This document shows positions 9,496-29,600 of a DNA stretch of 64,000 bases, piece by piece (within the stretch, counting starts at the first letter, position 1; every line of letters starts with the position of its first letter). The stretch comes from Mesorhizobium temperatum (GTDB lineage Bacteria > Pseudomonadota > Alphaproteobacteria > Rhizobiales > Rhizobiaceae): the NCBI RefSeq assembly GCF_002284575.1, contig NZ_NPKJ01000007.1, positions 414 through 64,413 on the forward strand, read 5' to 3'. Below the pieces are notes generated by a model. The model ran no database searches. It was not told where the DNA came from and saw only the letters and a list, made by a program, of their open reading frames with translations. A program made the translations under genes and the position numbers.

Positions 9496-9526
9496 GGCCG
9501 GAACGACGTCGTTCCGGCCCATTTTC
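9496..9526. terminator. Bidirectional terminator
   Basis: A 24-base perfect palindrome (GGCCGGAACGAC and its exact reverse complement, 9496-9519) is followed by CATTTTCTG on the plus strand. It lies between the stop codons of the convergent protease and TerC-family genes, where a shared terminator is expected. Confidence 0.7.
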
Positions 9527-9532
9527 TGTGTC

Positions 9533-12326: not shown

Positions 12327-14420
12327 CTATATGAGGTCCTCGAGAAACTCTGAACCCGGCTTCACACTCGACAGGAACAGGCGATCCCGTGCCCGGGTCG
12401 CAGCCACATAGAGAAGCTGCCGTTCGGTGGCGATGACCTCGTCTAGCTCGAACTCGTCGGCCACGTCCGCCACGCGGGCCGCGAGCGGCAGAACGCCCTC
12501 GTCGCAGGCCACGACGAGGACCGTCCGGAACTCCAGCCCCTTGGCGAGATGCATGATGCCGACCAGGGCCGTGTCATCGCTGGCCTTTCCGGAAGATACG
12601 GTGCGATACGGTAGTGCGGCGGCCTCGGCAATCGCTCGGGCGCGCGGAACTTCGGCAGGGGAACGGACGAAAATGGCGATCTGGTCGGGCGGGATGCCGT
12701 CTTCGAGCAAGGCGCGGATGAAGGCAGCGGCAGCGTCGCGCTCCGCGGCCTCGTCGTCGGCAATCACCACCGTTGGCTCGATCCCCTCGAAGACCGATAC
12801 CGCACCGCGCCGATCGTCCTCTAGCCCATCAACGTCACGGATAGTTTTGGGAAGCAGGCGGTCGGCCATCTGCCTGATCTGCTGGGAGGTGCGATAATTC
12901 ACCTTCAGCGTGAAGGAGCGCCCGCGAACGTCGATGCCGAGCCCCTTCCAGGAAAAAGGCTGCTGGAAGATGCGCTGGCCGATGTCTCCAGCGAAGAAAA
13001 GCGCATCGGGGCTGTCAGGCGCGATAGCCCCAAGGAAGCGCAACTCCGGAACACCGAGATCCTGCGCCTCGTCGACCACGATATGCGTGAACGGTTTTTC
13101 CGCGCGCGAAGCGTAAGTGGAGGTCACTGCCTGGAACAACGAAGCCGGCGTGAACAGCGCCTTCTGTCGAAGTGCTTCGCGCACGCGCGAAAACACCTGC
13201 CACAGCGCCTCGCGCTGTTTTTGCCCCAAGCGGTTCTTGCGGCCCATGCGCGGCACCTCGGCATAGGCGTCGGCGCTGTCAATTCGCCAGGCGTCGATGA
13301 CGTTTTCCCATTCGGAGATCAGGAAGCGCGGCGAGAAGCCATGCACGCCTGCATCGTTCGCCGCCCTCTCGATCAGTCCGCGGACCGTCTCGCGGTCGGC
13401 GATATGCGCCTTTCGCCCCGCCGTCAGCCCGAACAGTTCCTCGGCGATCCTGCGGAAGGAGGCGACGGTGACACGGCCTTCCAGATCGTCGCGGCCACCC
13501 GAAAGCACGGCGAGCTTGCGTTTCAGCGCATCGGCCAGGGGGTCGGAGAAGGTCGTGAGCAGCACGCGTGCGTCCGGATCGAGGCGAAGGATGCGCATCA
13601 CGCGGTGCAGAGCCACCACGGTCTTGCCCGTCCCGGCGGAGCCAGCAACCCGAGCGGGCCCGGAGTAGTCGCGCTCGACGACGCCGCGCTGCAGAGGATG
13701 CAGGAACACCGCCCATTTCTCGAACGGCGCGTCGAGCGCCGCCTGCAGCTCGTCCAGCCCTTCCAGCACCCGGAACCGACGCATCGTGTCGGGATGCTCA
13801 AGCGGGTCTTCGACGGGTTCGGCGGGTTTCAGGATTCCCGTGGCGGCATATTCGAGCAGCGCCTCTCCCGCTTCCTGAGGCAGGTGCGAGGCCAGGGCGA
13901 AGAAGCTGTCCTCGGTTGCCTCGGCGACGTCGGCCAACCAGTCCTGCGGCACGCCGACGGAGAGAAGGTGGTCCGGCGTCAGTTTTGCGAATAGCGGCGG
14001 CGCGGGGATGCTCTCCTTGTCCGGAGCGACCTCGAATGGCAGGTCGGCCTGAACGGGTTGGATCGCTGGTTGCAACGCCACTTCCTCGACGCGCTCGCGC
14101 ACCTCGACGATCTGGATCGCACCGGTCGACGGATGCGTCTCGATGCGGCGCCGCTCGGCCCATTTGTAAGCGTCGTCGTGATGATCGACATAGGCCAGCA
14201 TTACGCTGTCCCCTGTCTTGTGGATGATGATGCGCAGGTCCCGGTTGACCCGCACCGACCAGAAATTGGGATCCTTCGACTTGTCGATGCGGTGGAACTG
14301 CAGGCCAGGCTGATCCGGGTTGGCTTGGAGGTCGAACGCCGTCAGCTTCGCCTGCTTCTGCTCGTCATTGGCGAGCTTCGCGAGGGATGAGGTAAAGCTG
14401 TCGGCTAGTATGGTGGTCAA
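12327..14420 (-). CDS. UvrD/Rep-type helicase with RelE-like N-terminus
   Basis: A superfamily 1 helicase of 697 residues. The first about 90 residues form a RelE/ParE-like domain (LQFHRIDKSKDPNFWSVRV, LRIIIHKTGDSVMLAYVDHH, AYKWAERRR) as in several defence-associated helicases. The motor carries Walker A GSAGTGKTVV (Lys266), Walker B VVDEAQDLG (Asp450), NYRTSQQIRQ, HLAKGLEFRTVLVV and YVAATRARDRLFLS. I start at TTG 14420 because TILADSF begins there and the preceding gene stops 11 bases before it. It is the last gene of the minus-strand operon. Its start closely resembles the 29-residue frame at 16404-16493. It likely unwinds or translocates on DNA in a nuclease complex, which is inference. 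Confidence 0.9.
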   Translation of the reverse strand: MTTILADSFTSSLAKLANDEQKQAKLTAFDLQANPDQPGLQFHRIDKSKDPNFWSVRVNRDLRIIIHKTGDSVMLAYVDHHDDAYKWAERRRIETHPSTGAIQIVEVRERVEEVALQPAIQPVQADLPFEVAPDKESIPAPPLFAKLTPDHLLSVGVPQDWLADVAEATEDSFFALASHLPQEAGEALLEYAATGILKPAEPVEDPLEHPDTMRRFRVLEGLDELQAALDAPFEKWAVFLHPLQRGVVERDYSGPARVAGSAGTGKTVVALHRVMRILRLDPDARVLLTTFSDPLADALKRKLAVLSGGRDDLEGRVTVASFRRIAEELFGLTAGRKAHIADRETVRGLIERAANDAGVHGFSPRFLISEWENVIDAWRIDSADAYAEVPRMGRKNRLGQKQREALWQVFSRVREALRQKALFTPASLFQAVTSTYASRAEKPFTHIVVDEAQDLGVPELRFLGAIAPDSPDALFFAGDIGQRIFQQPFSWKGLGIDVRGRSFTLKVNYRTSQQIRQMADRLLPKTIRDVDGLEDDRRGAVSVFEGIEPTVVIADDEAAERDAAAAFIRALLEDGIPPDQIAIFVRSPAEVPRARAIAEAAALPYRTVSSGKASDDTALVGIMHLAKGLEFRTVLVVACDEGVLPLAARVADVADEFELDEVIATERQLLYVAATRARDRLFLSSVKPGSEFLEDLI

Positions 14421-14430
14421 TATCGACTCT

Positions 14431-15441
14431 CTACTTCTTGTCCTTCGGTAACCGAGAACGTCGATCGCGACGGTATTCCACCACAACTTTCGAAATCATT
14501 TCATCACGTTTCATTTGTCCCGCAGATTTGGGCTTTGGCTCCGCATTCTGCTTCGCTGGTGGAATTGTCCTGATCGCCTTCCTGTTGGGGTGCGATTTGG
14601 CCTTGGACTTCTTCTTCGGCGGTGGAGGCGCTTTAGTCACAGACCGAGCGCGATGAGTTCTTGAACGGCGTATCAGTACTGATGCCGGAGTAACCCTCTC
14701 CGACCCAGCCTCAATCAATGTGTGTGGTTCTCGCAGAGGCCTCAGCGCATGTTCGCCAGTGGGAATGACCCTTAGAAACCGCTCGTTTTCAAACCAGGTG
14801 GCCTTGTAGGATCGAGGTTCGCACTTGGCAGGATGAAAGACACTAATCGCCGAATACGAGCCACTGACGACGTCGCCCACAGTGATGATTTCGTCTGGGC
14901 ACGTGATAGAGAAGTGGACCACGGGACCATCGGCCATTTCAATTAGCTGACCGGCCAGAAAGAGTTGAAATCCCTTACGCTCGACTGACGTGATTTCAAT
15001 CATTTGCCAGTCAATGGCATAGCCGGACCTGTGATAGCGGCCTCCATCGTATATTCCGAGGAAACTGGCGGCTTCTGCGAGCTCAAGGCGCATTCCACGC
15101 GCACGGGATTGAGGGCGCGGCGATATTGCGTTCACTGAGAACTGGGGATTGTCGGTGCAGCAGTGTTTCGGCCACGGTGGGCCTAGGTCATCAAAAAAGA
15201 CGCGGCTACCTCTGTCGTTCTGGTAATAGAAGACCGCAGCCTTGCAAACCGGACAAACCGCGTTCGGATTTACAAAGCAGGATGAGTAACCCTTGCTTGC
15301 CCGCTGCTCCCGCAGGATGCGCTCTGCGTCGCGGGTTTGCATCGACCTTCGCAACTGCGAGCGGTCGATCCTGACGTTGCCCCACGTGCTGGAGCACCAA
15401 CCGCAGCCACAATCTGAATAGTGGTTGTAGCCCCGTCCCAC
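14431..15441 (-). CDS. Cysteine-rich unknown protein of the defence operon
   Basis: I do not recognise this 336-residue protein. Its N-terminus is dense in potential zinc ligands: Cys11, Cys13, Cys16, then Cys55, Cys63-x-x-Cys66, and His93-Cys94-Cys95 after FFDDLGPPW, suggesting one or two zinc-binding modules. The middle (about 100-235) looks like a mixed alpha/beta domain, and the last 90 residues are a lysine/proline-rich basic tail (APPPPKKKSKAKSHPNRK) that could bind nucleic acid. It starts with GTG three bases after the HNH gene stop and ends 11 bases before the helicase, so translation is coupled. A role as DNA-binding partner of the HNH nuclease is inference. Confidence 0.75.
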   Translation of the reverse strand: MGRGYNHYSDCGCGWCSSTWGNVRIDRSQLRRSMQTRDAERILREQRASKGYSSCFVNPNAVCPVCKAAVFYYQNDRGSRVFFDDLGPPWPKHCCTDNPQFSVNAISPRPQSRARGMRLELAEAASFLGIYDGGRYHRSGYAIDWQMIEITSVERKGFQLFLAGQLIEMADGPVVHFSITCPDEIITVGDVVSGSYSAISVFHPAKCEPRSYKATWFENERFLRVIPTGEHALRPLREPHTLIEAGSERVTPASVLIRRSRTHRARSVTKAPPPPKKKSKAKSHPNRKAIRTIPPAKQNAEPKPKSAGQMKRDEMISKVVVEYRRDRRSRLPKDKK

Positions 15442-15444
15442 CCC

Positions 15445-16407
15445 TCACACCCCAAACACGTTCAACACCTCGTCTTCGAGGCTATTGATGACCTTAATAT
15501 CCTTCGAGGCTTGCTCGGGAACGGTCGTGACCACGCCAACCTGCGGCACATGTGTAGGCTGTCTCCGCGACCATGAACCCTCGCTCCAATTCCGCACGGC
15601 TTCAGCGGCAGAGGGCACCATCGTCCATTCGTATTCACGCCCGGACGGCCACCAACCCTCGGCCAGGAGGCTCATCCGGATGGGCGAGCCGTCATTACGG
15701 AGGTCCGGCTCCCATTTAAGCAGCGATGTGAGACGGCCCGCCAGTTTGCCGTAGAGCAGGTTTGCGGTCTTGGGATCGTCTTTGCCCAAGGCCTCTCGCG
15801 CCAGCACCCGCATTGTCGCGGTGCGGCGCAGTGCGCCAGCATGTGCACGCAAAAATGCGATGTCGCGATCGGATAATTCCGCTTGCTCGAATGCTCGACG
15901 GAATGCGGCCTCGTCTGGTCTCGGCCGCAAGGGGCGTGGACGCGCCCAGGGTGCGACCAGAGATTCAGGGTCAAGCGTCAGTGATCGCCACCAATAAGGC
16001 CCGGCCGTTCGGACGCGAATGACAGGCAACTCAACCTTATGTCCAGACGTAATCTTTTGGCCTAGCGCCCGCCGTTCAGGAAGGCTCCGCAACTGGACGA
16101 ATTCCGACCCGTATCCACCCGCTTCGAGATGCAGGCAGAACAGTTCCCATTCGGCTGGCGGCGCATTGAAGCGTTTGTGAAGCCTGCTGTGGCAGGGCTT
16201 GCACAGAGGGTAGGATTGCGGCGGCTGAAAGCTGAACGGCTCGGAATAGTCCTCCGAATGCCATTCTCCCTGGGGCCGGTCAGGATCACCGCACATTGCG
16301 CATGGTTCGCCCTCGAAAGGAGCGTGTCGCCCCGTCAACCTGCGATAGGCGGGCATGATCCTTGCCCGCTGTTGCCCGCTGTATCCGTTATAGGGGGCAT
16401 TGCTCAT
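15445..16407 (-). CDS. HNH-type nuclease with Mod-like C-terminal tail
   Basis: A 320-residue protein with a zinc-ribbon HNH-like core near its start: Cys36-x-x-Cys39, GEWHSEDYSEPF, then Cys69-x-x-Cys72-His73-x3-His77 (PLCKPCHSRLH). Such cores cut DNA using a metal bound by the histidines. Residues 100-300 are unassigned. The last 16 residues, KVINSLEDEVLNVFGV, match the end of the methyltransferase encoded at 18671-21790 (KVINHFGDEVLKVFGV) at 12 of 16 positions. The ATG at 16407 overlaps the stop of the 29-codon frame before it (ATGA), and the next gene follows after 3 bases. A restriction role within the operon is likely. Confidence 0.8.
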   Translation of the reverse strand: MSNAPYNGYSGQQRARIMPAYRRLTGRHAPFEGEPCAMCGDPDRPQGEWHSEDYSEPFSFQPPQSYPLCKPCHSRLHKRFNAPPAEWELFCLHLEAGGYGSEFVQLRSLPERRALGQKITSGHKVELPVIRVRTAGPYWWRSLTLDPESLVAPWARPRPLRPRPDEAAFRRAFEQAELSDRDIAFLRAHAGALRRTATMRVLAREALGKDDPKTANLLYGKLAGRLTSLLKWEPDLRNDGSPIRMSLLAEGWWPSGREYEWTMVPSAAEAVRNWSEGSWSRRQPTHVPQVGVVTTVPEQASKDIKVINSLEDEVLNVFGV

Positions 16408-16493
16408 GTTAAACGCACAATCCTTTTCAGCACCTTGTCGTCGAGGTGCTTGGCGAGAGTTGCGCTGAAGCTGTCGGCGAGGATCGTGGGCAT
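16404..16493 (-). CDS. 29-residue frame resembling the helicase N-terminus
   Basis: This frame starts with ATG two bases after the DUF262 stop and ends in TGA overlapping the HNH start codon (ATGA). It reads MPTILADSFSATLAKHLDD and so on, very like the first residues of the operon's last protein (MTTILADSFTSSLAKLAND). Many codon third positions differ between the two, so this is not a fresh copy. It looks like the stub of a second, diverged helicase gene, kept perhaps only as a leader that couples HNH translation. Whether the peptide itself matters is unknown. Confidence 0.5.
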   Translation of the reverse strand: MPTILADSFSATLAKHLDDKVLKRIVRLT

Positions 16494-16495
16494 GA

Positions 16496-18277
16496 TCAGT
16501 CAGCGTTTCCAGACGCGGGATCAAGTTGCAACCTGCGAAGGCGCTTTCGGATGAGTTTCTCGCGTTCCTCGATAAACTTGGGAAGCATCAGCACCGTTTG
16601 CAGATGCTCCCCCTCCGGAATTCTATGTCGGGAAATAAACCCCGCGTCTCTAGTTCTGATCCAGGTGCTGAATTGTTGTGCGTTCTTTTCCAGATTTTCG
16701 GGCGCGGAGAGAAGTTCGAGGTTAGCAAAGCGATTTTCGAGATCGCGCAATTCGTCAATCTTGCTCTGCGACACGTTCAGCGCCATGAGTGCGTTGCGAG
16801 ATAGCACAGCGTGAGGAAATATGTGATCAATGTGGTAAGGAATGTTGCCCCAACGATGCTCATCATAGAGCAGTGTGAGCGCGAGGAAGGTTAGTTTCTT
16901 GCCATAGCTAAGCTTAAGCACGTCGTCAATCGTGCTATCTTCGAAGGCAGACGAACGTCGCAAGTGCTTGGAAAGTTCGGCGTGCAGTTGAAGAAACGGG
17001 AACTCACTTCCCGGCTTGGACTTTTCAATGACGTTGCGTGCGACGGTGATCGTCGCATCAGATGCACCGCCAAAGACGGTGTTGATCAAGGCGGCGATGA
17101 TCCAGCGTCTGATCCTCTCGGCATTCACGACGTTGAAAGGAGTATCCTGCGTAAGCAGGTCGTGCCCTGTTAGGTGCAAATATTGCGCGATCGGAAGGGT
17201 CGCATTCAGCGACGTAAGATTTGTTTCGTCCAATCCATAGGTGTTCAGAAGTGCGAATGTTGCGCGTAGAGACTTCTTGACCTTCGGCCATGCGGACTGC
17301 ATGGAATCGATATTGGCGAGAGTCAGATTGCGAACTTGATACTGGTGATTGAGACCGGACAGCAATAGCGCTGCCTTGATGACATAATCTCGGGTGACGG
17401 CGTTTCGACGGGTACCCTCGTTGTTGATCTCATGCACAAGATTGACGATCTCCTCCCGCGCAGAGAATTGCGACCAGCGGGACGAAATCATCGACATCAT
17501 CAGATCGGACTTGCTGAGCTTTGTCCCTGCATCGTTGGCCCTGACAAATATCCGAAGGACGCGGTCATAGTCCTGCAGTTTTTCCGTATAGAAGGAGACC
17601 GATTCATCCTGCCAGACCATACAGCGTAGCCGATCCAGATTGCGCGCGGCAATTTCCCGTTCGGCCTTGGGTGCGTCTAGGCGCAGCAGGCCCAGTTTCT
17701 TGGCCTTAAACGTTTCGAATGATGCATCGTCTCGGTGTTCGAGTATTTCGCCAACCCGGATCCACAACTGCCCTGGTAGGTGTGGCGGGGGAGTCTCCCG
17801 GAATTCGAAGGCATACAGTTCCTCGTCGTGCTCTTCATCATCCTCGTCAAAGACATCGTCCGGCTCAACGAGGAGGTCGAGGTAGAGTTTCTTGGTCCGC
17901 CAAGCGTCAACGCTAGTGTTGCGCTTGTGTTTGACCTTTTCGGTGAGCGAGCCGCGCAGGCCAATCAACAGCGACGTCAGTCGCTGTTGGCCGTCCAACA
18001 CCAGCGTGGCATCGAGACCGTCCAGATTTGCGTGCTCGTTGTGGATCTCGCCCTGGCGAAAGTTCTCCGCGAAGCGATAGGTCTGCCAGTTCTGCTTGTT
18101 CTCCGTCGCGACATCCCAAAACAGGAATGAGCTGATGGGAAAACCTTTCATCAGGGAATCGAAAAGCCTGACAATCTGCTCGGAGTTCCAGACATAGGGT
18201 CGCTGGATAGCCGGCAGGAAGTACCTGCGGTTAATGTTCATGACCGTCTCGGCGACGGTGGCTGCGGAGTATGGCAT
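16496..18277 (-). CDS. DUF262 / HNH GmrSD-like restriction protein
   Basis: A 593-residue fusion of the two halves of the GmrSD type IV restriction family. The N-terminal DUF262 half has the ParB-like motif VLDGQQRLTSLLIGL (Asp95-Gly-Gln-Gln-Arg), which is linked to nucleotide use, after RRYFLPAIQRPYVW. The C-terminal half ends in an HNH/DUF1524-like site: YHIDHIFPHAVLSRN (His482, His485) and RFANLELLSAPENLEKN. GmrSD enzymes cut modified phage DNA; single-chain forms are common. It lies 18 bases after the DUF4357 gene. A long acidic insert (DVFDEDDEEHDEELYAFE) near residue 140 stands out. A role against modified DNA is inferred from the family. Confidence 0.9.
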   Translation of the reverse strand: MPYSAATVAETVMNINRRYFLPAIQRPYVWNSEQIVRLFDSLMKGFPISSFLFWDVATENKQNWQTYRFAENFRQGEIHNEHANLDGLDATLVLDGQQRLTSLLIGLRGSLTEKVKHKRNTSVDAWRTKKLYLDLLVEPDDVFDEDDEEHDEELYAFEFRETPPPHLPGQLWIRVGEILEHRDDASFETFKAKKLGLLRLDAPKAEREIAARNLDRLRCMVWQDESVSFYTEKLQDYDRVLRIFVRANDAGTKLSKSDLMMSMISSRWSQFSAREEIVNLVHEINNEGTRRNAVTRDYVIKAALLLSGLNHQYQVRNLTLANIDSMQSAWPKVKKSLRATFALLNTYGLDETNLTSLNATLPIAQYLHLTGHDLLTQDTPFNVVNAERIRRWIIAALINTVFGGASDATITVARNVIEKSKPGSEFPFLQLHAELSKHLRRSSAFEDSTIDDVLKLSYGKKLTFLALTLLYDEHRWGNIPYHIDHIFPHAVLSRNALMALNVSQSKIDELRDLENRFANLELLSAPENLEKNAQQFSTWIRTRDAGFISRHRIPEGEHLQTVLMLPKFIEEREKLIRKRLRRLQLDPASGNAD

Positions 18278-18295
18278 GACGAATGGAACCCGAGT

Positions 18296-18667
18296 TTAAG
18301 AGGATGGGGAAAGGAAATCCTTCAGCGACTTGCCCGACTTGATTTCAATCCAGAGCTGAGGGCCACTGGCGTTGTCGTCCTTGATGATGCCGGCCGCGCG
18401 ACTGGCGCTCGTGAATTCATGGTCGCGTGTGAATTTCAGAAGCTTTGAATCGCCAGTCGCCGCGAGGATGCCATGTCTCACCAGTCGATCACGTTCCTCG
18501 CGATCGCGCTTCTTGGTCGCCGAACTGTCTTTCACTGCCGTTGAGCCTGCGAGCACCACGAAACCTCCGTCAGGCAGAACCCGGCCGTCCGCCTGCGCGT
18601 CATGCGGACGATATCGGAAAGTTAGGTCCAGGAGCTCTGGGTCCATGTTTACTGTCATCTTTGCCAT
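18296..18667 (-). CDS. DUF4357 domain protein
   Basis: A short protein of 123 residues fitting DUF4357: GGFVVLAGSTAVKDSSAT, then RDRLVRHGILAATG, FTRDHEFTSASRAAGII and a final tryptophan (LWIEIKSGKSL). This domain is often found at the C-terminus of, or next to, restriction and GIY-YIG-type nucleases and is thought to bind DNA or a partner protein. The ATG lies three bases after the methyltransferase stop codon, so the two are probably translated together and may form a complex. The first 25 residues (MTVNMDPELLDLTFRYRP) are outside the domain. Confidence 0.8.
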   Translation of the reverse strand: MAKMTVNMDPELLDLTFRYRPHDAQADGRVLPDGGFVVLAGSTAVKDSSATKKRDREERDRLVRHGILAATGDSKLLKFTRDHEFTSASRAAGIIKDDNASGPQLWIEIKSGKSLKDFLSPSS

Positions 18668-18670
18668 GTT

Positions 18671-21600
18671 TTACACTCCAAAAACCTTCAGCACTTCATC
18701 CCCAAAATGGTTGATCACCTTGACGGCAATCCGCCCCGTGCTCGGCCTTGGGAATGGCCGTGACGTATCTGAATAGAGCGTCGCCCAGGCGTCCTCATCG
18801 ATTTCCGCCCTCAGCGCCGTCTTCAGCGACTTGTAGGGATCGTTCGCGCCGAGGAAGTAGGCGTGGCGAACGAAAAAACTCTCCTCGTTGTAGTCGGTGT
18901 CGATGAACCAGGCGGCGATACCCTTGACGTCGTCCGAGCGGATTTCGCCCGTCGAGGGGTCAAAAATGTCGACGCCGTTGACCTTCACCTGAAGCTCGCC
19001 GTCGGCCGTCTCGATCAGGTCGACATCCGGCTCGCCGAACACGACGAAAAGATTGCCCTTGCCCGTGTTCTTCAGGTCCTCGGCCATATGCAGGTCGGGA
19101 TTCATGCGGGCTTTCAGGATCGCCAGCGGGCCGAGGCGGTTGAGGTCGCTGGCCTGGGCCTCAAAATTGAAGGCGCAGGCGATCAGTGCGTCGAAGCGGG
19201 CATCCGAAGCCTCGCGGGCAGCGGCGGTGATCTGGCTGCGCGTCAGCGTGCCGAATTCCGGGCCGATCAGGATTCCTGCGCGTTTCTCGCGGCCATCCCC
19301 ATCATTGTATCGGCCTTCGGCGGCCAGCCAGTTGCCTGGCCATGGCTCGACCGAGTTGAAACGGATGGTGTCGCGCTTTTCCTGCTGATGGACTCCGGCG
19401 GAGCGCAGATGGTCGAGCACCATGTGGCCGAAATCCTGGTCCGGCACGTTCTTCGGCGCGGGCTGCATCGTGCCTTGCGCGGCCGAAATCTCCGCGCCCA
19501 GCGTGTCGTCGCGGGCGGTGACGACGCGGTGCGGCGACAGGCTCTCGACCGTGAACGGGCCGGCGACGCGCACTTTTGTCCGGTCCTCGTAGGGGCGATC
19601 GAAAAGCATCTCGACATCGGCGGCCTTGGCGATCGAGGCGTCGATCTCCTTCTGCCGCGCAATGCGGCCCTCCCACCAGCCCTTGTGCAGCTCGCGCAGG
19701 CGAGCGCTGACGAGGCCGGCCTTAGGCGCGCCTTCCTTCGTCTCCAGCCACTGGTCGAGGTCGCGCGGGATTTCCCACTCCTGCCAGCCGGGCGCGGCCT
19801 CTCCCTCCCCCTTGAGGGGAGGGTCAATCCGCGCAGCGGATTGGGGTGGGGTCGCCGCGGCAGTGCTCGACAATCTGGTAGTGCCTTCTGAGGCTACCCC
19901 CTCTGGCCGCTTCGCGGCCATCTCCCACTCGAGGGGGGAGAATCCCATCGCCTCGTTCATCTCCCTTCGCAGCGGCTCCAAAACCTGCTGCCACTTCTCC
20001 CAGATCACATCGATCTCGGCATTGTTGGCAATGGATTTAAGCGTAACGCGCGGCGCGCGCTCATAGACGAATCCCTGGCGGATATCGCCGGCGGTCGGCG
20101 CCTGCGGCTGGATCCTGCGCGACACCTTCTGCTCCTGCGCGCGACCCTCGGCGCTGTCGGCGAGATAATAGTAGGGATAGCGCGCCGCCATGAGCCGCGT
20201 GCGGGCAAGCGCCAGCGCCACGCGGGACGTATCGATGGTGATCCAGCGCCGGCCCCACTGCTCGGCAGCCGTCGCAGTCGTGCCGGAGCCGCAGGTCGGG
20301 TCGAGCACGAGATCGCCAGGATCGGTCGTCATCAGAATGCAGCGTTGTATGGCCGTCGAGGAAGTTTGGACTATGTAGACCTTGTCCTCAGAGCGACTGG
20401 TAAATGCTGTATCCCGCCATAAATTGTTGATCGGGCGAACCGGAAAGTCGTCGAGGAATCGGATGAACCGGACGTCATTTTTCCTTGCTAGCAGACGGTT
20501 CGCCCTTCCAGCCCTGGCCAAGCTCTCCGGTGGCATACCCCACCATCGGCTAGCCGATGTAAATGTCTTTCCCGCGAACTGGAATTCGTATTTACGACCT
20601 GGACCAGGTTTGGTGAGATCGCTCAAGCTAAATGGCCGATCTTCGGGACGAAGAATGATTGTGCCTGCCTTCTCTTCTGCTGAAAGCGTTCTTCGGCTGA
20701 GATCAGTTTCGTTTTGCACGTAAAAGTATTCCGAAACTGAATCGGTCTCGGCCCGCTTGTCTACGAAGAGCGGTCTGAATTTCGCCTTGCCGATGTCCTT
20801 CGCATATTGAATGACGTAGTCCAAAATTGCGGGTAACGAGGTGCCCGATTGCAATCCGGACGTTTTGCTAACCCCTATCAACGCTACGAGGTTCTCCTCC
20901 CCAAATACTTCGTCCATCAGAGCCCGCACGCGATGGACATTCTCGTCGCCGATCTGAACGAAGATCGAGCCACTCTCCGTCAGCAGTTCGCGCGCGACCA
21001 TCAGGCGGTCGCGCAGGTAGGTGAGATAGGAGTGGATGCCGTCCTTCCAGGTGTCGCGAAACGCCTTCACCTGTTCCGGCTCGCGCGAGACATCTGATAC
21101 CTTGCCGTCCTTCACGTCGCGCGACAGCGTCGACACCTGCCAGTTGGAATTGAATTTGATGCCGTAGGGCGGGTCGAAATAGATGCACTGCACTTTTCCG
21201 CGCATCGCCTCGCGCTCGGCCAGGCTCGCCATCACCTGCAGCGAGTCGCCGAGGACAAAACGGTTCGTCCAGTGCTGGGAATGCTGGTAAAAATCCGCGC
21301 GCTGATCCACATCCAGCCCGTTGAAATCGGCGAAGAGGTCGGGCGTGTCCGTCTCCGTCTCGCGGCGCGCATCCGAGCGGCGCTTCAGATCGTCGATGAT
21401 CGCCTTCGGGTGCACCTTCTCCTGCACATAGATCGGCGGCGCGTTGACCACGAGGTCGGACCAATCCTGGGTGTCCTTGCCCTTCCAGACAAGCTGCGCG
21501 TCGCCGATCTCGATCTCGCCGGTCTCGGCGAGTTTTCGCATCTGCTCGCGGGTGATCTTTATCCGCGCGCCATTCCAGACAATCTGCGGGTCGAGGTCGC

Positions 21601-21790
21601 CATCCCGCTGCCTGGTCTCGCCAAGCATCAGCGGCCGCGGGCGTGGCAGGCTCATGGAGCGCTCGGTCTCGCCCAGCATCTCCGCCTGCTGCTCGAACAG
21701 CGCGGCCATCTCGGCGGTCGGGTTGTTGATGCGCCGCGCTGCGTCATGGGTGAGCGCGTCGATGGCTTTTTGTATGGGCGTTTTGGCCAT
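18671..21790 (-). CDS. Large beta-class N6-adenine DNA methyltransferase
   Basis: A modification enzyme of 1039 residues. The catalytic motif DPPYG (from Asp206, in CIYFDPPYGIKF) comes before the S-adenosylmethionine motif LDPTCGSGTTA (from Asp497), the beta-class order shared with type III Mod subunits. It is much longer than usual Mod proteins (about 650), because of a C-terminal half typical of partners of BPTD_3080-type restriction helicases. A RIME-like palindromic repeat is inserted in frame at 19799-19945, adding about 49 residues near residue 630. The tail KVINHFGDEVLKVFGV is shared with the HNH protein. The start overlaps the preceding stop (TGATG). It probably protects host DNA from the operon's nucleases. 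Confidence 0.92.
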   Translation of the reverse strand: MAKTPIQKAIDALTHDAARRINNPTAEMAALFEQQAEMLGETERSMSLPRPRPLMLGETRQRDGDLDPQIVWNGARIKITREQMRKLAETGEIEIGDAQLVWKGKDTQDWSDLVVNAPPIYVQEKVHPKAIIDDLKRRSDARRETETDTPDLFADFNGLDVDQRADFYQHSQHWTNRFVLGDSLQVMASLAEREAMRGKVQCIYFDPPYGIKFNSNWQVSTLSRDVKDGKVSDVSREPEQVKAFRDTWKDGIHSYLTYLRDRLMVARELLTESGSIFVQIGDENVHRVRALMDEVFGEENLVALIGVSKTSGLQSGTSLPAILDYVIQYAKDIGKAKFRPLFVDKRAETDSVSEYFYVQNETDLSRRTLSAEEKAGTIILRPEDRPFSLSDLTKPGPGRKYEFQFAGKTFTSASRWWGMPPESLARAGRANRLLARKNDVRFIRFLDDFPVRPINNLWRDTAFTSRSEDKVYIVQTSSTAIQRCILMTTDPGDLVLDPTCGSGTTATAAEQWGRRWITIDTSRVALALARTRLMAARYPYYYLADSAEGRAQEQKVSRRIQPQAPTAGDIRQGFVYERAPRVTLKSIANNAEIDVIWEKWQQVLEPLRREMNEAMGFSPLEWEMAAKRPEGVASEGTTRLSSTAAATPPQSAARIDPPLKGEGEAAPGWQEWEIPRDLDQWLETKEGAPKAGLVSARLRELHKGWWEGRIARQKEIDASIAKAADVEMLFDRPYEDRTKVRVAGPFTVESLSPHRVVTARDDTLGAEISAAQGTMQPAPKNVPDQDFGHMVLDHLRSAGVHQQEKRDTIRFNSVEPWPGNWLAAEGRYNDGDGREKRAGILIGPEFGTLTRSQITAAAREASDARFDALIACAFNFEAQASDLNRLGPLAILKARMNPDLHMAEDLKNTGKGNLFVVFGEPDVDLIETADGELQVKVNGVDIFDPSTGEIRSDDVKGIAAWFIDTDYNEESFFVRHAYFLGANDPYKSLKTALRAEIDEDAWATLYSDTSRPFPRPSTGRIAVKVINHFGDEVLKVFGV
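19799..19945 (-). repeat. RIME-like palindromic repeat inside the methyltransferase gene
   Basis: About 147 bases made of successive palindromes: a CCCTCCCC-type stem closed by CTTG (about 19803-19823), AATCCGC-GCA-GCGGATT (19828-19844), TGGCCGC-TTC-GCGGCCA (about 19904-19920) and CTCCC/GGGGGAG at the far end. The layout is that of rhizobial intergenic mosaic elements, which are normally outside genes. Here it is a multiple of three and stays open, so the reading frame survives. Confidence 0.75.
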
Positions 21791-22782
21791 CAGGATTTCT
21801 CGTCTTTTATGTCGGAGGCATGCGCCAGGAAGGCATAGCGGTCACGAAGGTAGTTCGCCCAGCCGTCGTTGACTGGCGCATCGGCAATCAGTGGCGAAAA
21901 CAAGGATTCAGTCGAGCGGCTGAGGAAGTCGTCGGGTTCGACCAGCAGCGAGCGGTAAACCTTGAAGGCGTCGCCGCCAAGCGGACGCAACGCAGGCGAA
22001 GTAACGCGGGCCAGCCGCCGGTTCGCAGCCGGCGCGATGTGGAGCACGCGGACGCGCTCGGCCCCGTCCTCTTGCTCGGCTTGCATGCGAGCCGCCAGCA
22101 TCTGCTGGCGGAAAAGCTGGTAGAACGGTTCCCAGAAGAGGTCGGTGAGTTTTAGGCCAGCATCGCTGCGGACAGGGCCGAACGGCGCGAATGCCATGCT
22201 CTGGTAACGGCGAAGACGCTCCGCCTCACGCTTCTGTTCGGGCGGAGTTCCATAGGACTCCGTATACTTCCACTCGACCAACAAAGTTTCGATCCGGCCA
22301 GCCTGACGGAAGCGCAGGATCGCATCGGCGCTGGTGACGTTGGCGCCGCGCTTCGGCGACCCGGTCCGCGGCCATTCGTTGAGGTAATCCATGCGGCCGA
22401 TCCATTCGAACCCGACGAACCAGGATTCGCCGTCGGGTCCCTTTTCGACTTCCAGCATTTCGGGGAGGTCGCCGCCGACCGCCTGCTGGACGAGGCGCGC
22501 CAACATCTCCGGGCGCGTCGCGAGAGGCATCAGGAAATTCAGGCAGCAGACCTGAGAGGAGAGGCCATGGGCCGCGTGCTGGTGCCAGGCGATGGCGTTG
22601 TCGGAGAAATAGCGCGCGGCAACATCGCGGATTTCAGGATTGAGGTTGGAAAGCCTGTTGGCGGGTGCGAGGCGGTAGTCGCAGCCTTCAAACCCGCACT
22701 CATCGGGCAAGGTCGCGTGGAAGAACGCCGACTGCCGCGCACGTTCCTGTTCGACGAAGTGCAGCTCGCGTGGGTCGGTCAT
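21790..22782 (-). CDS. PD-(D/E)xK-like nuclease-fold protein
   Basis: A 330-residue protein without a family I can name. Residues 150-175 (SADAILRF, then ETLLVEWKYTES) have the spacing of a PD-(D/E)xK active site: Asp153, Glu170-x-Lys172. The fold is common in restriction enzymes. The N-terminal part contains HATLPDECGFEGC with cysteines at 29 and 34, and the C-terminal part is helical. It sits between a small unknown gene (4-base overlap) and the methyltransferase (TGATG overlap), so its product probably belongs to the same complex. Nuclease activity is inferred from the motif only. Confidence 0.7.
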   Translation of the reverse strand: MTDPRELHFVEQERARQSAFFHATLPDECGFEGCDYRLAPANRLSNLNPEIRDVAARYFSDNAIAWHQHAAHGLSSQVCCLNFLMPLATRPEMLARLVQQAVGGDLPEMLEVEKGPDGESWFVGFEWIGRMDYLNEWPRTGSPKRGANVTSADAILRFRQAGRIETLLVEWKYTESYGTPPEQKREAERLRRYQSMAFAPFGPVRSDAGLKLTDLFWEPFYQLFRQQMLAARMQAEQEDGAERVRVLHIAPAANRRLARVTSPALRPLGGDAFKVYRSLLVEPDDFLSRSTESLFSPLIADAPVNDGWANYLRDRYAFLAHASDIKDEKS

Positions 22783-23207
22783 GCTGTGGTCCCGCCCAAC
22801 GTCTGACCCAAGGCCTTTTCATAGCGCTGCGATGTCTCCCACAGGAAATCGGCTGCCTGATCCCAGTTGCCTTCGTCGTTCATGTCGAGATCAAGCCTGA
22901 TCGAGAAGAACCTGTCGCTCTCGCCCGGGCTTTTCAGCGGAGCGCCAAGTGCTGGAACCAGTTCGTCCTGCCAGTGTGTCAGGCGCTCGCGCAACTTCGA
23001 CGCTTTCCCACCGTCCGTCGTCCGGACGAACACGCGAACGAAATCGATGCCGGTAGTGATGCTAATCGCCAAACCCAGTTCCGGCATGGCATGCCAGCGT
23101 GCGCCGACAGGCTGCGCCTTGCCATGCAGCATCTCGCCCTTGTGACGGCCGAACATATGCAACCAGAAGCGCTTGATCACTTCCGTCTTGAGGTCGTTGT
23201 AGGTCAT
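22779..23207 (-). CDS. Small unknown protein of the restriction operon
   Basis: I do not recognise this protein of 142 residues. It has a helical start (TYNDLKTEVIKRFWLHMFGRH), a beta-rich middle (LGLAISITTGIDFVRVFVRT) and a conserved-looking end with aromatic residues (NWDQAADFLWETSQRYEKAL). The ATG at 23207 has GGAG upstream; a start seven codons earlier is possible. It lies 77 bases after the restriction helicase gene and overlaps the next gene by ATGA. Position suggests an accessory subunit of the restriction-modification complex. Confidence 0.7.
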   Translation of the reverse strand: MTYNDLKTEVIKRFWLHMFGRHKGEMLHGKAQPVGARWHAMPELGLAISITTGIDFVRVFVRTTDGGKASKLRERLTHWQDELVPALGAPLKSPGESDRFFSIRLDLDMNDEGNWDQAADFLWETSQRYEKALGQTLGGTTA

Positions 23208-23283
23208 CGACCGATCACTCCGCCGCAATCCACATTTCGGCCTCGGTCGCTGAGGGCCACCTGGTTCGTCTGGAATGCGCTGC

Positions 23284-26200
23284 TCATTGGGCTGCCGCCA
23301 TTCCCGAGGGCTCCGAATGACGTTTCACCAGCTTCTCCCATTCATCCTTGATCGCGAACGCATCGCGAAACTCGGCAAACGCCCATCGGCCGAAAGTCTT
23401 CAGATTGTTCACGCCTGGCACCCAGAGTGTTTCCATCGTCTGGGACTTGATCTGCGCGTCGAGACCGCGAAACCCCTTGATCTCCACCACGACGTTGAGC
23501 GGGTCCTCGACGCCATGCCCGTCATCGATCCGGACGATGAAATCGGGCAGATAGCGGCGAGTGACGGAGCCACTGAGATATGGCACCTCGAAGCCCAGCG
23601 CCTGGTTCTTCACATAGGAGAGCGTCGCCGGATGATTTTCGACGACGCGGGCAAACTCAGCCTCCCAGTCACTGTCGCATACGACGTAGTTGATGTGGCT
23701 CTTCAGGGGCGACGTGGTCCAGAGATTCGTCTTCGTCGTGTTGAAGGCGACGTGATTGGTCGAACCGTGCGGATTGTAGGGGTCGAGCATCGCCTTGACG
23801 ATCGGCGAACCATCCGCGCTCGCCTCACGCACGATCGCTTTGTAGATAAGCCCAGCCGCTTTTTCGGCGATCTCGGCATAGGTGAGCATGCCGATTTTCG
23901 TGCCGCCAGTCGTCTTCAGATGGTCCCTGATCCAGCGCCGGGTGATCGGCTGGATGAGGTTGTAGAGATGGTAGGGCGGGTCCTGGGCGCCGTCGCGGAA
24001 ATAGCGCTCGACCAGCCGCTTGGTCAGATGCACAGCAACCGAGTTCGGCCGCATGTCGTCTAGGGCATCGGGCGAAATGTCGTGACCCTCGCCGACGAGT
24101 CCTTCAAGCCGGGTCTCGCAAGGTCCGACCAGTTCCGGCGTGAGCGTCAGCGTCGAATCCGCGTTGAAGGTCGCCTGGATGCGGTCCGGCGGCAATTCGG
24201 TGCGGTAGCCTGCGACACGCGGAAAGCGGATGGCGAGGCGCTCGCGCTCACGCACCGCCGCGACTCGCGTGACCGGTTTCGGCGGCTTCTTCGTGACCGT
24301 CTGCGGCTCGGTCGCGAAGTCGAAGGGAATGCCGAGGATGTCGGCATATTCCGTCTCGAACAGTCCGGTCTCGGGGTTCAGTTCATAGGACTGGCGGCGC
24401 AGGCCCCGGCCGATGACCTGCTCGCACAGAAGCTGGGTGCCGAAGGCGCGGACGCCGAGAATGTGGGTGACCGTGTTGGCGTCCCAGCCTTCGGTCAGCA
24501 TCGAGACCGAAACTACGCAGCGGATCTGCTCGCCGAGCCGGCCCTTCTGGCCGACCGTGTTCATCACCTCGCGCAGCAGTTCACTGTCGGAGATGGCGCC
24601 GGCGGCCGCGCCCTCGCGCTCCTGCTTCTCCCGGCGGAACTGCTCGATCTCGGTCGCCGCCATGTCGCGGAAGGTTGCGTCGAGCGCCTCGCCGGACTCG
24701 ATCTGCTGGGAATCGATCAGCAACGTGTTCATGCGAGGCAACGGCTCGCCAGTGTTTTTGTCGAAGTTGCTGAACAGCGGGAGATGGCCGTGGTGTATGG
24801 TCTGCAGCTGGCCTTCGCGCTCGCGCTGCCAGCCGGAAACCCATTCGTAGACGAGCTTCGAGCTGGCGGTGTTGTTGCACACCACGATGAACACGGGCGG
24901 CACGCCGATGCCGGCGCGCTGCCATTCGTCGAATTCCTTCTCGTAGTGGCTGTAGAGCGAGATCAGCGCGGTCTGGAGCTGCGCCGGGATCGAGAACGGG
25001 TCGAGTTCGCCGGACTTGCCCGCGCCCTTCTTCGGCATCGCCTTGCCGATATGGTCCCACAAATTGCGATAGACAGGCGTCTCGGCGTTGACCGAATTGT
25101 CGGCGACGGGGACGCGCGGCAGCTTGACGATGCCGCATTCGATCGCGTCGACGAGGCTGAAGTCCGACACCACCCAGGGAAACAGCGTGCCTTCCTCGTA
25201 GCCCGAGCCGCGCAGGAAGAAGGGCGTGGCGGAGAGATCGTAGACCGCGCGCAGGCCGACCTTGCGCTTGAGCGCCTCCAGGCCGGAAATCCAAAGCCGC
25301 GCCGCCTCGTTGTTCTTTTTCGCCTCTTCCTTCTCCTCGCCCTTGGCTTCGGCTTCCTCGTCGGTGCCGGGCCGTTCCCGGTAGCAATGATGCGCCTCGT
25401 CGTTTATGACGACGATGTTCTTCAGATGCAGGAGTTCGCCGCAGGCCCGCTGCAGCATCTCACCCTCGGTCTCCTGCTGCTCGATGGGATGCCCGGTGCG
25501 CCCCTGCATCAGCCGCTCGCCAACTGGGTTGAGGTCATGCGCCTTGCGGCGCTGGAAGGCGTGGTAGTTGGTGATGACGATCTTGGCCTTGCCGAGGTCG
25601 GTCATCAGTTCGGCGGGCACCAGCTCTCGCGTGCGGTAGTAGTTGTCCGTGTCTGAAGGATTCAGGACGCGGAGGCGGTCCTTGATGGTGATGCCCGGCG
25701 CGACCAGCAGGAAGCCACGGGAGAACAGGGGCGAATTGGACTGTCGCGCCGCGTTGATCGACTGCCAGGCGATCAACATGGCCATGACGGTCGTCTTGCC
25801 TGCCCCGGTCGCGAGCTTCAGCGCCAGGCGGAACAGGTCCGGGTTGGCGTCTCGGTTGGCCTCCTGCAGGTGCCGGAAGATATGCGCGTACTGCTTTCGA
25901 CCGCGGGCGACCTCGGCCAGCCAGATTGCCGTCTCGACCGCCTCGATCTGGCAGAAGAAGGGTTTCTGGTTGGAGAATTCGTGATGACGCCAGTGCTGTA
26001 ACAGGCGCTGGGTGACTGGCGTCACTCCCCAGTCGTTGGGATTGGGCAGAGCCCGCCAGGATTCGAGGTGATTGCGGATTTCGTTGATGATCGGAGTTGG
26101 ATTGTAGCCGCTGGTGTCACCCTCGTCGGCATCGAATGCAAGCGACGTCTGGCTCCGCGCGACCGCCGCCTTCGTGCGCCGCGCCTTCGGAACAGGCGTA

Positions 26201-26334
26201 ACATACTTCGACCGGCGTCGACCTTCGATCGGAGGATGTTCGAGCGGCTGGCCGTCCTCTCCAAGCGCGTGATGCCGCGTCGGCGGCAAGTACGGAGAGT
26301 TGAGGATCGGCTCGGCATAAAAAGGTTTCGTCAT
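23284..26334 (-). CDS. BPTD_3080-family restriction endonuclease (DEAD/DEAH helicase)
   Basis: The first gene of the minus-strand operon, 1016 residues. It is a superfamily 2 translocase like type III Res: Walker A LATGAGKTTVMAML (Lys180), DEAH box VVINDEAHHCY (from Asp312), DLSATPF, and the late motif EQVIGRGLRRQS. A PD-(D/E)xK nuclease lies near the C-terminus (FEVPYLSGSVTRRYLPDFIV and NVVVEIKGF). The N-terminus MTKPFYAEPILNSPY is typical of the BPTD_3080 family, so I start at ATG 26334. Together with the methyltransferase it forms a type III-like restriction-modification pair. An ATP-driven search for unmodified sites followed by cutting is expected from the family. Confidence 0.92.
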   Translation of the reverse strand: MTKPFYAEPILNSPYLPPTRHHALGEDGQPLEHPPIEGRRRSKYVTPVPKARRTKAAVARSQTSLAFDADEGDTSGYNPTPIINEIRNHLESWRALPNPNDWGVTPVTQRLLQHWRHHEFSNQKPFFCQIEAVETAIWLAEVARGRKQYAHIFRHLQEANRDANPDLFRLALKLATGAGKTTVMAMLIAWQSINAARQSNSPLFSRGFLLVAPGITIKDRLRVLNPSDTDNYYRTRELVPAELMTDLGKAKIVITNYHAFQRRKAHDLNPVGERLMQGRTGHPIEQQETEGEMLQRACGELLHLKNIVVINDEAHHCYRERPGTDEEAEAKGEEKEEAKKNNEAARLWISGLEALKRKVGLRAVYDLSATPFFLRGSGYEEGTLFPWVVSDFSLVDAIECGIVKLPRVPVADNSVNAETPVYRNLWDHIGKAMPKKGAGKSGELDPFSIPAQLQTALISLYSHYEKEFDEWQRAGIGVPPVFIVVCNNTASSKLVYEWVSGWQREREGQLQTIHHGHLPLFSNFDKNTGEPLPRMNTLLIDSQQIESGEALDATFRDMAATEIEQFRREKQEREGAAAGAISDSELLREVMNTVGQKGRLGEQIRCVVSVSMLTEGWDANTVTHILGVRAFGTQLLCEQVIGRGLRRQSYELNPETGLFETEYADILGIPFDFATEPQTVTKKPPKPVTRVAAVRERERLAIRFPRVAGYRTELPPDRIQATFNADSTLTLTPELVGPCETRLEGLVGEGHDISPDALDDMRPNSVAVHLTKRLVERYFRDGAQDPPYHLYNLIQPITRRWIRDHLKTTGGTKIGMLTYAEIAEKAAGLIYKAIVREASADGSPIVKAMLDPYNPHGSTNHVAFNTTKTNLWTTSPLKSHINYVVCDSDWEAEFARVVENHPATLSYVKNQALGFEVPYLSGSVTRRYLPDFIVRIDDGHGVEDPLNVVVEIKGFRGLDAQIKSQTMETLWVPGVNNLKTFGRWAFAEFRDAFAIKDEWEKLVKRHSEPSGMAAAQ

Positions 26335-26667: not shown

Positions 26668-29600
26668 GTGAGTATCGGTCTTAGGCGTAGCTCGACAAGA
26701 GTTCCGGCGGGCACCCAGGCATCGCCATCACATCGCTTTCTGAGTGAAATCCTCGCTCAATGCGGCCTTGAAAAGCCCGATGGTCGTCCGCTGTATCGCT
26801 ACCGCATCAGCGACTCTCAATATCAATATGGCCTCTCGCTCTTGCGAAAGGCTTCTGCATTGCTGGACGGAAGCAACCGCCCGCTTTGCGCCATCTTTGC
26901 TCTTGTTACGGCGGAGTGGTTTCGCAGGGAGGCTGATACCCTATGGCGGCGCTGGCAGGATGTCGGCGTGGTGCCGGAAGAGGTTTCCAAGATTGAGCGG
27001 AACGAAATCGCACGCGCTGGGCTGGACTGGTGGGAACTGAAACTCATCGTCAATGAGGGACCACGGCGTACCCGTAACGAGTATCTGATGACGCTCGCCC
27101 GCAACGGTGGGCTTCCATCGACGCTTCTCGTCGGCGAACGTGCCAACGCGGTGCGGAGCTATTTCGAGAACGTGATGGCCGACTCGCTCGCATTGGGGTG
27201 GCCCTCGTCCCACGCCGATTATTTATCAATCGCCATCCGTCATGCAGAAGGACTGCCTACCAGCTACCAAGAAGACAGCATTTTCGCTCTGGCTGCGGAG
27301 TTGATCGCCGGGTTGATCGAATGTCGCCGCGCCTTACCGAGGGACCAGCTAAACAACAATCCTGCTGGCTGGCTTGATGCGCAAGCGAAAGGCTGGCGCG
27401 ACCGCCTTCCGATTCATCTGCCCGAGGATCAGGCTGCCTGCAGCAGGCTCTTTAACGATCTGCTTACGGTCGCGCCTAAGGCGCGGGGTGGCGGCATCGG
27501 ACTCAGGCGCCTTCTCGCGCAACACCCCGGTGGCAAGTGGATTGAGGGATTCGTCGTGCAGGCCGACGGTCCGCTCCGTTTTGATGCGCTCGCCGATGAA
27601 CAAGAAGGCCGCTTTCGCGCCTATTTCGCCGGAGGCGCCGCTCGGCTTACCTCCCGTGAATTCGCGCTGGTCTATCGGTCGGAAACGGATTCAAAGGGCA
27701 AATTCGAGGTGACCTCGCAGGCGCTCGGTCGTCCCGGATTCGTCGGCCCGCTGCCGTTCTCAGACGCGATAGCGGTGACACTTTCGCGCGAGGGCAATAC
27801 TTTGCCGGCCGTGTGCTGGCCCGGTGGCCGCACTGCGGCCTCGGCTTGTCACGTGCTGCGGCAAACGGAGCGAGAGGATCGGCTAGAACTCATTGGGACC
27901 GGCTCGGTTCGTTCGACCCTGGAAAACCTTTTCGTATGGGTGTCGGAAGGGACCAGGGTCTTAGGTCACGATGACGGCGTCGCGGAACTCATGTGGCAGC
28001 ACGACAGTCGGGCCCTCTGGCGTGTGGAGGGCATGGCGCTTGTTGAGACAGGAGAGGGCGAACGCTACCGCGTTCAGGCGGGTGCATCCTCGGACGAGGA
28101 ACGGCGGCTGGATCTTGAGACGATTTATCTGCCATCGCTGTCACTGGACGACGGGTCCATCCAGCCTGTCGCCGCGCCATTACTGGTCCGCACGAACGGC
28201 TCCGCCGGCACACCACGCTTGCGCATCCTGCGGGACGGGCGCGAAGTGCACGCACGACAGGCTTTGGAAGGTCCCAATCCCGCAGGCCGCGCCAAGACAC
28301 ACGTGCCCCCGCGGCTTCGATGCGCCCTTCGATGCTGAAGCCGTTAGGTAAGGCAAGGACGCGAGCGCGGTCGACCAGGAATCCTTCTTCATCCAGCCAC
28401 TGGACAGTAACGAGTCCATCGCGCCGGTCGATACGGACGGTGTAACGATCGAGGTAGAACGATCGGGCAACAGCTTCCTGGCGTCATGGCGCGATGCGCC
28501 TACAGCCCAGCAGCGCCTCCGACTGACCGATCCTGAAGGGGCCACAGTTATGGCGTCACTCGGTCTCGTCGCAAATGAGACGTTGCTCGTTGATGCTTCC
28601 GGCAAGATTCGCAAAGACGCGCCAGTGCTGTCGCCCGCCGATCTACGTGGCGCCGTTCTAGTGACTGGTGAGCCGGTCACGATCGACCTCGACCTGCGCG
28701 GGGCGGGCGATGCACGGGCGCTGATCGCCCGCCGCGTGGAAGGCGAGACTCCCATGGTGCGCTTCGGTGCGCTGGCTGAAAGCCTTCTCGGCCTGTCAAC
28801 CGAACGCGGCCCGAGGGTGATGATAAGGGACGATCGCAATCGCCCACTCTGCACCATACGCCGGAATCAAGACCTTCCGCTCGTGACAGACGGCAAGGTC
28901 CTCTTTGCGAATCTTGGCGCTGACGTACGCGCCGTCGCACGATCGCTTCTGCAACCAGAAACGGAGATCGCGCTCCTGCAAATTGGCAACGGCCTGTTCC
29001 AACTGCCGGCCAATCCCGATGGTTCATACCTCGTGTATTGCCGCAGGGGTGACGCAGTTCTGACGCGTCCTTCGATTATTGAAGCGCCGATCGATTCTGT
29101 TCGGCGTCAAACGCTCACGCGGCTGCAGGATATTGCGCTCGTTTCGGATGAGGACGCCCGCCGACAAGCCATCCAAAGGGAACTGCGGATCGTAGCCGAT
29201 GATAAGGAAAGAGGGGCCGAGATTTCCCAACTCATCCGCATCGTCGCATCCCTCAACGGCCTCAGCCCGCGAGCGATGGACATCACGCGAGAGTTGCCTT
29301 CTTGTCCTACGCTTCTATGCCGCCTGTTGTTGGCCGCGAGTCCTGAGCGACTTGATTCCATACTGGTGCTTGAACGCGATCTACCCTTCCTTTGGATGGC
29401 TTTGCCGCTCGACGCCTGGAAGCTGGCCGCAGCGACAGAATGGAACCGGGCTGTTTCAGACTTGTCGACGGTCTTCGAAGTCCCCCAAGCCACTGCCCAA
29501 GCCACGCTGCAGATGCAAAAACGCTTCGAGTCACTTGGCGAGCGAACGTTATGGTTTGCCGGAATCGTTCGTTCCCTGGGCCTCGGCAAGAACTTTTCTC

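Follow-up and report, generated by a model that had tools for sequence, protein, structure and literature searches.

The window analysed here, 64,000 nucleotides of Mesorhizobium temperatum (contig NZ_NPKJ01000007.1), carries on its minus strand a gene cluster running from position 26334 down to 12327 (window coordinates are used throughout). This cluster is best read, at a probability of roughly four in five, as a three-gene type III-like core (Res, Mod and RelE-UvrD) that hosts cargo genes in two variable slots, slot A between Res and Mod and slot B between Mod and UvrD. The original prediction had described ten frames from Res to RelE-UvrD, suggestive of one transcription unit and possibly of one composite anti-phage system. 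The tight minus-strand run is real, its open frames following closely on one another from 26334 to 12327, and nine frames are counted in it. Families were assigned to the nine proteins by Pfam, PADLOC and NCBIfam searches. In 5' to 3' order the genes are:

23284..26334, minus strand: Res, BPTD_3080 family helicase-nuclease, core gene 1 (NF046055 1271.9 bits, cut-off 800)
22779..23207, minus strand: protein whose match to PADLOC PDC-S11 (E 0.00056) is limited to the C-terminal part (model positions 175-311 of 318), slot A cargo
21790..22782, minus strand: REase-ARP / PDDEXK_13 nuclease (PF22558 2.6e-56, PF20796 4.1e-21), slot A cargo
18671..21790, minus strand: Mod, type III-like DNA methyltransferase, core gene 2 (PADLOC MTase_III 1138.8 bits, N6_N4_Mtase 1.6e-28)
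18296..18667, minus strand: DUF4357 protein (PF14267 1.1e-10; C-terminal part of PDC-S14 2.6e-20, model 210-309 of 320), slot B cargo
16496..18277, minus strand: GmrSD fusion, type IV restriction enzyme of the HEC-05/BrxU-like kind (HEC-05 match of 593.2 bits spanning almost the full protein), slot B cargo
15445..16407, minus strand: HNH-like protein, rare, with a Mod 3' relic as its C-terminus, slot B cargo
14431..15441, minus strand: cysteine-rich protein with a GTG start, slot B cargo
12327..14420, minus strand: UvrD helicase (UvrD in Pfam) with a RelE-fold N-domain (fold model), core gene 3

With preferred starts, the successive junctions measure 76 bases, an overlap of 4, an overlap of 1, then 3, 18, 88, 3 and 10 bases. 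Res begins at ATG 26334 or at a second ATG further upstream at 26361, and UvrD at TTG 14420 in a frame open from 14486. Between 12000 and 27000, on both strands, promoter-like patterns (2 found, a mean of 3.3 expected) and terminator-like patterns (14 found, 13.4 expected) occur at chance level. A single transcript for the nine genes is possible, being compatible with the packing and with the lack of promoter or terminator signals above chance. Of the families originally named, the BPTD_3080 Res, the REase-ARP of PD-(D/E)XK type, the N6/N4 Mod, DUF4357, the GmrSD fusion, the cysteine-rich protein and UvrD were recovered. The cysteine-rich protein itself has no match in Pfam, PADLOC or NCBIfam; nor has the HNH-like protein, whose HNH label was not confirmed by these searches and comes solely from an HNH-type C-x2-C...HxEDYS...C-x2-CH pattern in the sequence.

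The constancy of the core was established by comparison with other loci. The locus set was picked by Mod similarity and comprises the best 80 of at least 587 Mod relatives, from many phyla judging by the record names; the nine window proteins were compared with these loci by tblastn, and slot lengths were then measured. Res is present in 72 of the 80 loci, the other 8 having less than 1 kb of upstream sequence, and all 72 loci carrying both genes have it ahead of Mod and on Mod's strand. UvrD is present in 57 of 80; of the 23 loci lacking it, 12 have at most 5.2 kb of downstream sequence and 11 have about 9 kb or more. The Res-Mod-UvrD order and single strand are kept in 53 of 53 three-gene loci of this set and in 71 of 71, window included, when it is extended to 105 loci (the 80, the window, four plasmid loci and 20 same-order stretches, L130 among them). 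This tally kept only same-strand hits of at least 38% identity; no Res or UvrD best hit failed that filter, and none lay on the opposite strand.

The association also appears in a sample of 397 genomes from the window's taxonomic order, for which Mod and UvrD were tallied by hand from two tables. Mod at 50% identity or more occurs in 20 other genomes, and in 17 of them it is followed, on its own contig and strand, by UvrD; in the remaining three, Mod and UvrD lie on separate contigs (G190) or no UvrD is among the matches listed (G277, G334). Six further genomes have only distant Mods (41-49%) with no UvrD among the matches listed, and UvrD without a Mod among the matches listed also occurs (e.g. 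G359 and G369, as well as partial or contig-end copies).

The core resembles EcoP15I-like type III restriction-modification (RM) systems in that its Mod matches type III Mods and its Res contains the ResIII helicase part. The solved relatives of Mod are 6k0w, 7dsu and EcoP15I 4zcf, and in its sequence DPPY comes before DPxCGSGT; the order of these two motifs marks the methyltransferase class. Res matches Pfam ResIII, with RE_endonuc at 16.2 bits, below the cut-off of 23.4, and no solved relative was found for it by sequence search at E<=0.01. The core differs from type III RM systems in that its Res belongs to the BPTD_3080 family, barely matched by the PADLOC REase_III models (30 bits over 44 residues), and in that it adds RelE-UvrD as a third gene along with the two cargo slots. 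The N-domain of UvrD is predicted to have a RelE/YoeB fold: its model (pLDDT 88.3) matches YoeB/RelE with 12 hits at E<=0.001, the best being 2a6r_C at E 5.5e-5. This domain aligned in 54 of the 57 other UvrD-bearing loci, the remaining 3 having been removed by script filters.

In contrast to the constant order of the core, the slots vary. Slot A is shorter than 300 bases in 25 of 53 loci and slot B in 12 of 53; both are this short in 10 (bare cores), and both reach at least 300 bases in 26. (The slot B length figure for L033 is shortened by a UvrD relic.) Among slot open reading frames (ORFs) of at least 200 amino acids, the operon strand carries 89 and the opposite strand 8, and 98 of the 155 cargo ORFs, those of the window included, have no partner in the set by blastp. 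Of the 149 slot ORFs of at least 100 amino acids, 130 were scanned for families (plus-strand ORFs of at least 110 amino acids and any ORF of at least 200). Among the most frequent 25 of 87 Pfam families were GmrSD_N (7), Fic (6), Fic_N (5) and BRO-N (5), followed by the HerA central domain, SIR2_2, AAA_15, an IrrE-like peptidase and others (3 each) and by YhcG, subtilase, REase-ARP and others (2 each); the best 25 of 406 PADLOC models included HEC-05 (7), SoFic (6) and HerA (3). The slot comparison thus finds variable defence genes between conserved host genes, the arrangement on which the HEC/PDC concept is built.

Among the 80 loci, the PDC-S11-like and REase-ARP genes of the window have relatives in 2 each, the cysteine-rich gene in 1, and the DUF4357 and HNH-like genes in none. 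GmrSD matches occur in 7: full-length at 54% identity in slot B of L007, full-length at 27% on the opposite strand beyond UvrD in L073, and N-terminal at 28-32% in the other five, which are taken to be other GmrSD types. With these five excluded, any other locus holds at most two of the six cargo genes (L009, L031 and L168); L168, an added stretch, has REase-ARP and DUF4357, and L009 reaches three if the N-terminal GmrSD matches count. Relatives of the PDC-S11-like gene were found in L009, L031 and L182.

The GmrSD fusion, which combines DUF262 with a C-terminal HNH part, is matched along its whole length, while GmrSD_C alone scores 20.2, below its cut-off of 23. Its sole solved relative by sequence is 7p9k (E 1.7e-88), which we take to be BrxU.

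Several cargo genes also live outside the core, a matter on which the original prediction had staked the unity of the run by asking whether its last genes are normally found apart from Res and Mod. The answer is split. UvrD is not, being a core gene in the same order in 71 of 71 three-gene loci, although 11 of the 80 loci lack it with about 9 kb or more of downstream sequence. The cysteine-rich gene goes both ways: it is slot cargo, directly behind Mod, in L031, L160, L169 and L178, and its relatives matched 34 plasmid records, with no core gene within 8 kb in five of six stretches examined. On two rhizobial plasmids such relatives have BREX genes (L089) or a helicase/DUF1156/DUF499 cluster (L090) as neighbours less than 8 kb away; the annotated starts of these relatives are later than where the homology begins. 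The HNH-like gene occurs in 2 of the 397 same-order genomes, its own included, the other being one weak partial match, and it has no match in plasmids. In the same sample, REase-ARP is found in 5 other genomes, beside Mod in one (G166) and elsewhere in four, and GmrSD at E 1e-40 in one (G230), with no Mod among the matches listed there.

Further evidence of turnover comes from three short relics, of both core and cargo genes, that lie within the operon and were absent from the original prediction:

23215..23287, minus strand: scar of a GmrSD-like gene in slot A, retaining the first 43 nucleotides (23245-23287) and the last 30 (23215-23244), the middle gone
16434..16493, minus strand: UvrD 5' relic (MPTILADSFSATLAK...), identical at 46 of 60 nucleotides to the L007 and L008 UvrD starts and at 43 of 60 to the resident UvrD
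15445..15498, minus strand: Mod 3' relic (IKVINSLEDEVLNVFGV followed by the stop), the last 18 codons, stop included, of the HNH-like frame

A GmrSD-like gene of about 1.91 kb lies directly behind Res in L007-L010 and L160. Compared with L009, the scar matches at 30 of 43 nucleotides (5') and 26 of 30 (3'), the next best in the window being 26 and 19; the 3' match is clear, and the 5' match is moderate alone but begins at the Res stop. The UvrD relic, read from 16493 downward between GmrSD and the HNH-like gene, was detected by DNA identity and missed by the UvrD-start profile. The Mod relic matches the L007 Mod end at 44 of 54 nucleotides and the resident Mod end at 36 of 54, the latter being itself closest to L010 (51 of 54); its profile score is 15.4 bits, the best reverse-strand score 2.2. 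A third Mod-tail match at 16410-16463 (31 of 54) was rejected as being the UvrD 5' relic. The cysteine-rich gene of the window follows the HNH-like frame with its Mod-end relic, whereas in L031, L160, L169 and L178 it stands behind Mod itself. In L007, 48 nucleotides of a cysteine-rich gene start (87.5% to L160) are left between Mod and the HEC-05 gene.

A relic profile scan of 94 loci covered 89 stretches for slot B and 63 for slot A, with best reverse-strand control scores of 2.2 bits for the Mod tail, 1.2 for the UvrD start, 3.3 for the Res end and 4.5 for the Mod start. L033 repeats the order of the window: a UvrD 5' relic (109.8 bits), a 257-amino-acid frame, a Mod-tail piece, further ORFs and a full UvrD. 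The evidence for the Mod-tail piece of L033 is weaker: the profile gives 7.9 bits, the best reverse score being 2.2, but plain scoring gives 27, with reverse maxima of 19 and 26 for that locus. Further UvrD pieces were found in L055 (26.1 bits) and L073 (9.5 bits), and Mod-start pieces in L064 (33.3 bits) and L078 (61.3 bits), the latter being a second copy that lies upstream of the Mod gene. A Mod-tail piece in L009 (25-27 nucleotides, E 5e-4 to 5e-3; score 30 with a reverse maximum of 26; 0.1 bits in the profile scan) was weak and left uncounted, as were pieces in slot A of L042 (5.3 bits) and in L015 (6.0 bits).

The core genes themselves look mosaic. Residues 801-900 of Mod are 98% identical to L010 and 84-91% to L007, L008, L009 and L160, while residues 301-500 (20291-20890, minus strand), probably the target recognition region, are hypervariable (15-47% identity to eight relatives) in a Mod that is otherwise conserved apart from residues 601-700, likewise variable at 32-68%. 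UvrD residues 1-100 are closest to L007 (84%), and each later 100-residue block is closest to L010. These identities would fit recombination within the operon together with exchange of the target recognition part.

How cargo comes and goes can be pictured more specifically, if tentatively. The core may be an evolved cargo platform with polarised growth: fragments from a donor would pair with the conserved Mod, incoming cargo would insert immediately after that gene, and each time an old Mod 3' piece or a donor UvrD 5' piece would be left stranded. On this view slot B would be layered by age, with the youngest cargo by Mod and the oldest by UvrD, as the window and L033 suggest. The lesser security of the L033 Mod-tail piece under plain scoring lowers the odds of this scheme, which we consider possible but less likely than not.

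An ordinary defence island, in which genes merely accumulated as neighbours and the core has no special role, would account for the adjoining Druantia III genes and for the occurrence of the cargo families elsewhere. It is improbable, as the cargo lies between core genes whose Res-Mod-UvrD order is otherwise constant, most of it shares the operon strand, and some of the junction relics derive from the core genes themselves.

Another reading concerns the HNH-like protein, whose Mod-like C-terminus could be a docking tag recruiting it to a partner of the Mod tail. The last 21 residues of Mod (18674-18736, minus strand) are nearly invariant, with a conservation of 0.94 against a mean of 0.67 in 77 aligned Mods, about as conserved as the catalytic motif blocks, perhaps through contact with Res or UvrD (the predicted fold of the C-terminal third of Mod, at pLDDT 55, was left out of the analysis), and 12 of 17 tail residues are retained in the HNH-like protein. 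Relative to the L007 Mod tail, however, five of 17 codons carry amino-acid changes and one a silent change, and in three of these codons the change (H to S, G to E, K to N) hits a position that is near-invariant among the Mods listed, which suggests decay. The cysteine-rich gene directly behind marks an old Mod-Cys junction, and a strict motif search in 86 loci places the tail at Mod ends only. We therefore give the docking tag little credence. A search of plasmids with the 27-residue Mod tail gave 28 records with a single place each and no second tail. Least probable of all is one integrated nine-gene machine with all proteins in a single pathway, close to the composite ten-gene system first proposed: tight spacing, overlaps and chance-level internal promoter patterns speak for it, yet only Res, Mod and RelE-UvrD stay together, other loci hold clear relatives of at most two of the six non-core genes (weak N-terminal GmrSD matches excluded), bare cores exist, and cysteine-rich, REase-ARP and GmrSD relatives are found without the core.

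Several points weigh against the reading of a core with two cargo slots. The 80 loci were chosen by Mod similarity, and the 11 of 80 that lack UvrD despite about 9 kb or more downstream show that UvrD is sometimes truly absent or distant, and hence not obligatory. The slot ORFs were defined by a simple rule and some are possibly false; the defence-family counts cover slot ORFs alone, and the HEC/PDC models of PADLOC, themselves defined by embedding, lend no independent support. Of the 94 loci that offered a slot stretch, 6 contained core pieces, and no Res 3'-end relic was found in that scan (best forward 1.7 bits, reverse 3.3). Two of those six, L055 and L064, lack an intact UvrD, so their stretches, which run to 10 kb or to the locus end, are not bounded slots. 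In the core of L055 the UvrD start is decayed and the roughly 9 kb that follow contain no intact copy; this locus may have lost the third core gene.

With a three-gene core and two cargo slots, a division of labour can be proposed from families and motifs. Mod would mark self DNA, and unmarked DNA would be cut by Res through its ATP motor and PD-(D/E)xK-like end. For RelE-UvrD, the conserved third part of the core, our guess is a subunit with a motor or processing function that binds a partner or nucleic acid through its RelE-fold part. The slot cargo would consist of separate effectors riding on the operon's expression: phages that escape the core through modified cytosines would be caught by the BrxU-like GmrSD, and the REase-ARP and HNH-like proteins may be further nucleases. 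Cargo would be gained and lost inside the operon, presumably by recombination, leaving behind the observed short relics of core and cargo. The proposal that unmodified and modified DNA are both targeted survives in this form, as a type III-like RM paired with a BrxU-like enzyme fits it.

The embedding of defence genes is itself known from Hma/HEC and PDC (available text of PMC8565338, PMC11411939, PMC12988326, PMC10855318, PMC12255303 and PMC12839542, with further accounts in PMC4619093 and PMC12707154). The Hma operon (helicase-methylase-ATPase) hosts embedded defence genes including the HEC-05/BrxU family, as described in the accessible parts of PMC8565338 and PMC11411939, the latter equating HEC-05 with BrxU; it consists of a helicase, a methylase (termed m5C in PMC8565338) and a DUF499 ATPase (accessible part of PMC12839542). 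The present core likewise hosts embedded defence genes, an HEC-05/BrxU-like one among them. Membership in Hma was rejected, as a Pfam search with all nine proteins at E<=0.1 gave no DUF499 (HmaC) match. No Hma name, for HmaA or HmaB, stands among the PADLOC matches listed (best 25 of 55 for Mod, 25 of 35 for UvrD). TgvAB or DarTG2 embedded in a type I RM operon places a modification-dependent or toxin system inside RM (available sections of PMC11411939 and PMC12255303); the window differs from what those sections describe in RM type, many cargo kinds, two slots and core-gene relics. The pairing of RM with modification-dependent restriction also has precedent, in TgvAB within type I RM and in BrxU with BREX (PMC11411939, same sections). 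The window gene at 16496-18277 is BrxU-like over its length, but this copy sits in a type III-like host operon and not beside BREX. In the accessible text of the literature searched, BPTD_3080/Mod/RelE-UvrD as a two-slot host and core-gene relics in slots are undescribed and the term BPTD_3080 does not occur; a preprint (Payne 2024), known through citing papers, may already list this host. As far as these searches show, what is new is that this core serves as a host with two slots and that relics of the core genes lie in them.

Among neighbouring features, Druantia type III adjoins the cluster in divergent orientation (26668-35922, plus strand), with DruE at 29869-35922 (plus strand, 2058.7 bits). 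DruH looks split or broken, being spread over two frames at 26668-28338 (model 52-558) and 28550-29893 (model 694-1138). A tRNA-Sec with anticodon TCA is predicted at 44323-44400 (minus strand). A recombinase trio suspected at 8292-11694 from frame sizes was rejected, the Pfam results being an M50 peptidase, no match and an Na/Ca exchanger.

These results correct the tempting view of nine packed genes as a single machine. The relics are sequence fossils of cargo gain and loss. The host operon occurs across many phyla (by record names), and its slots can be mined for new defence genes through guilt-by-embedding.

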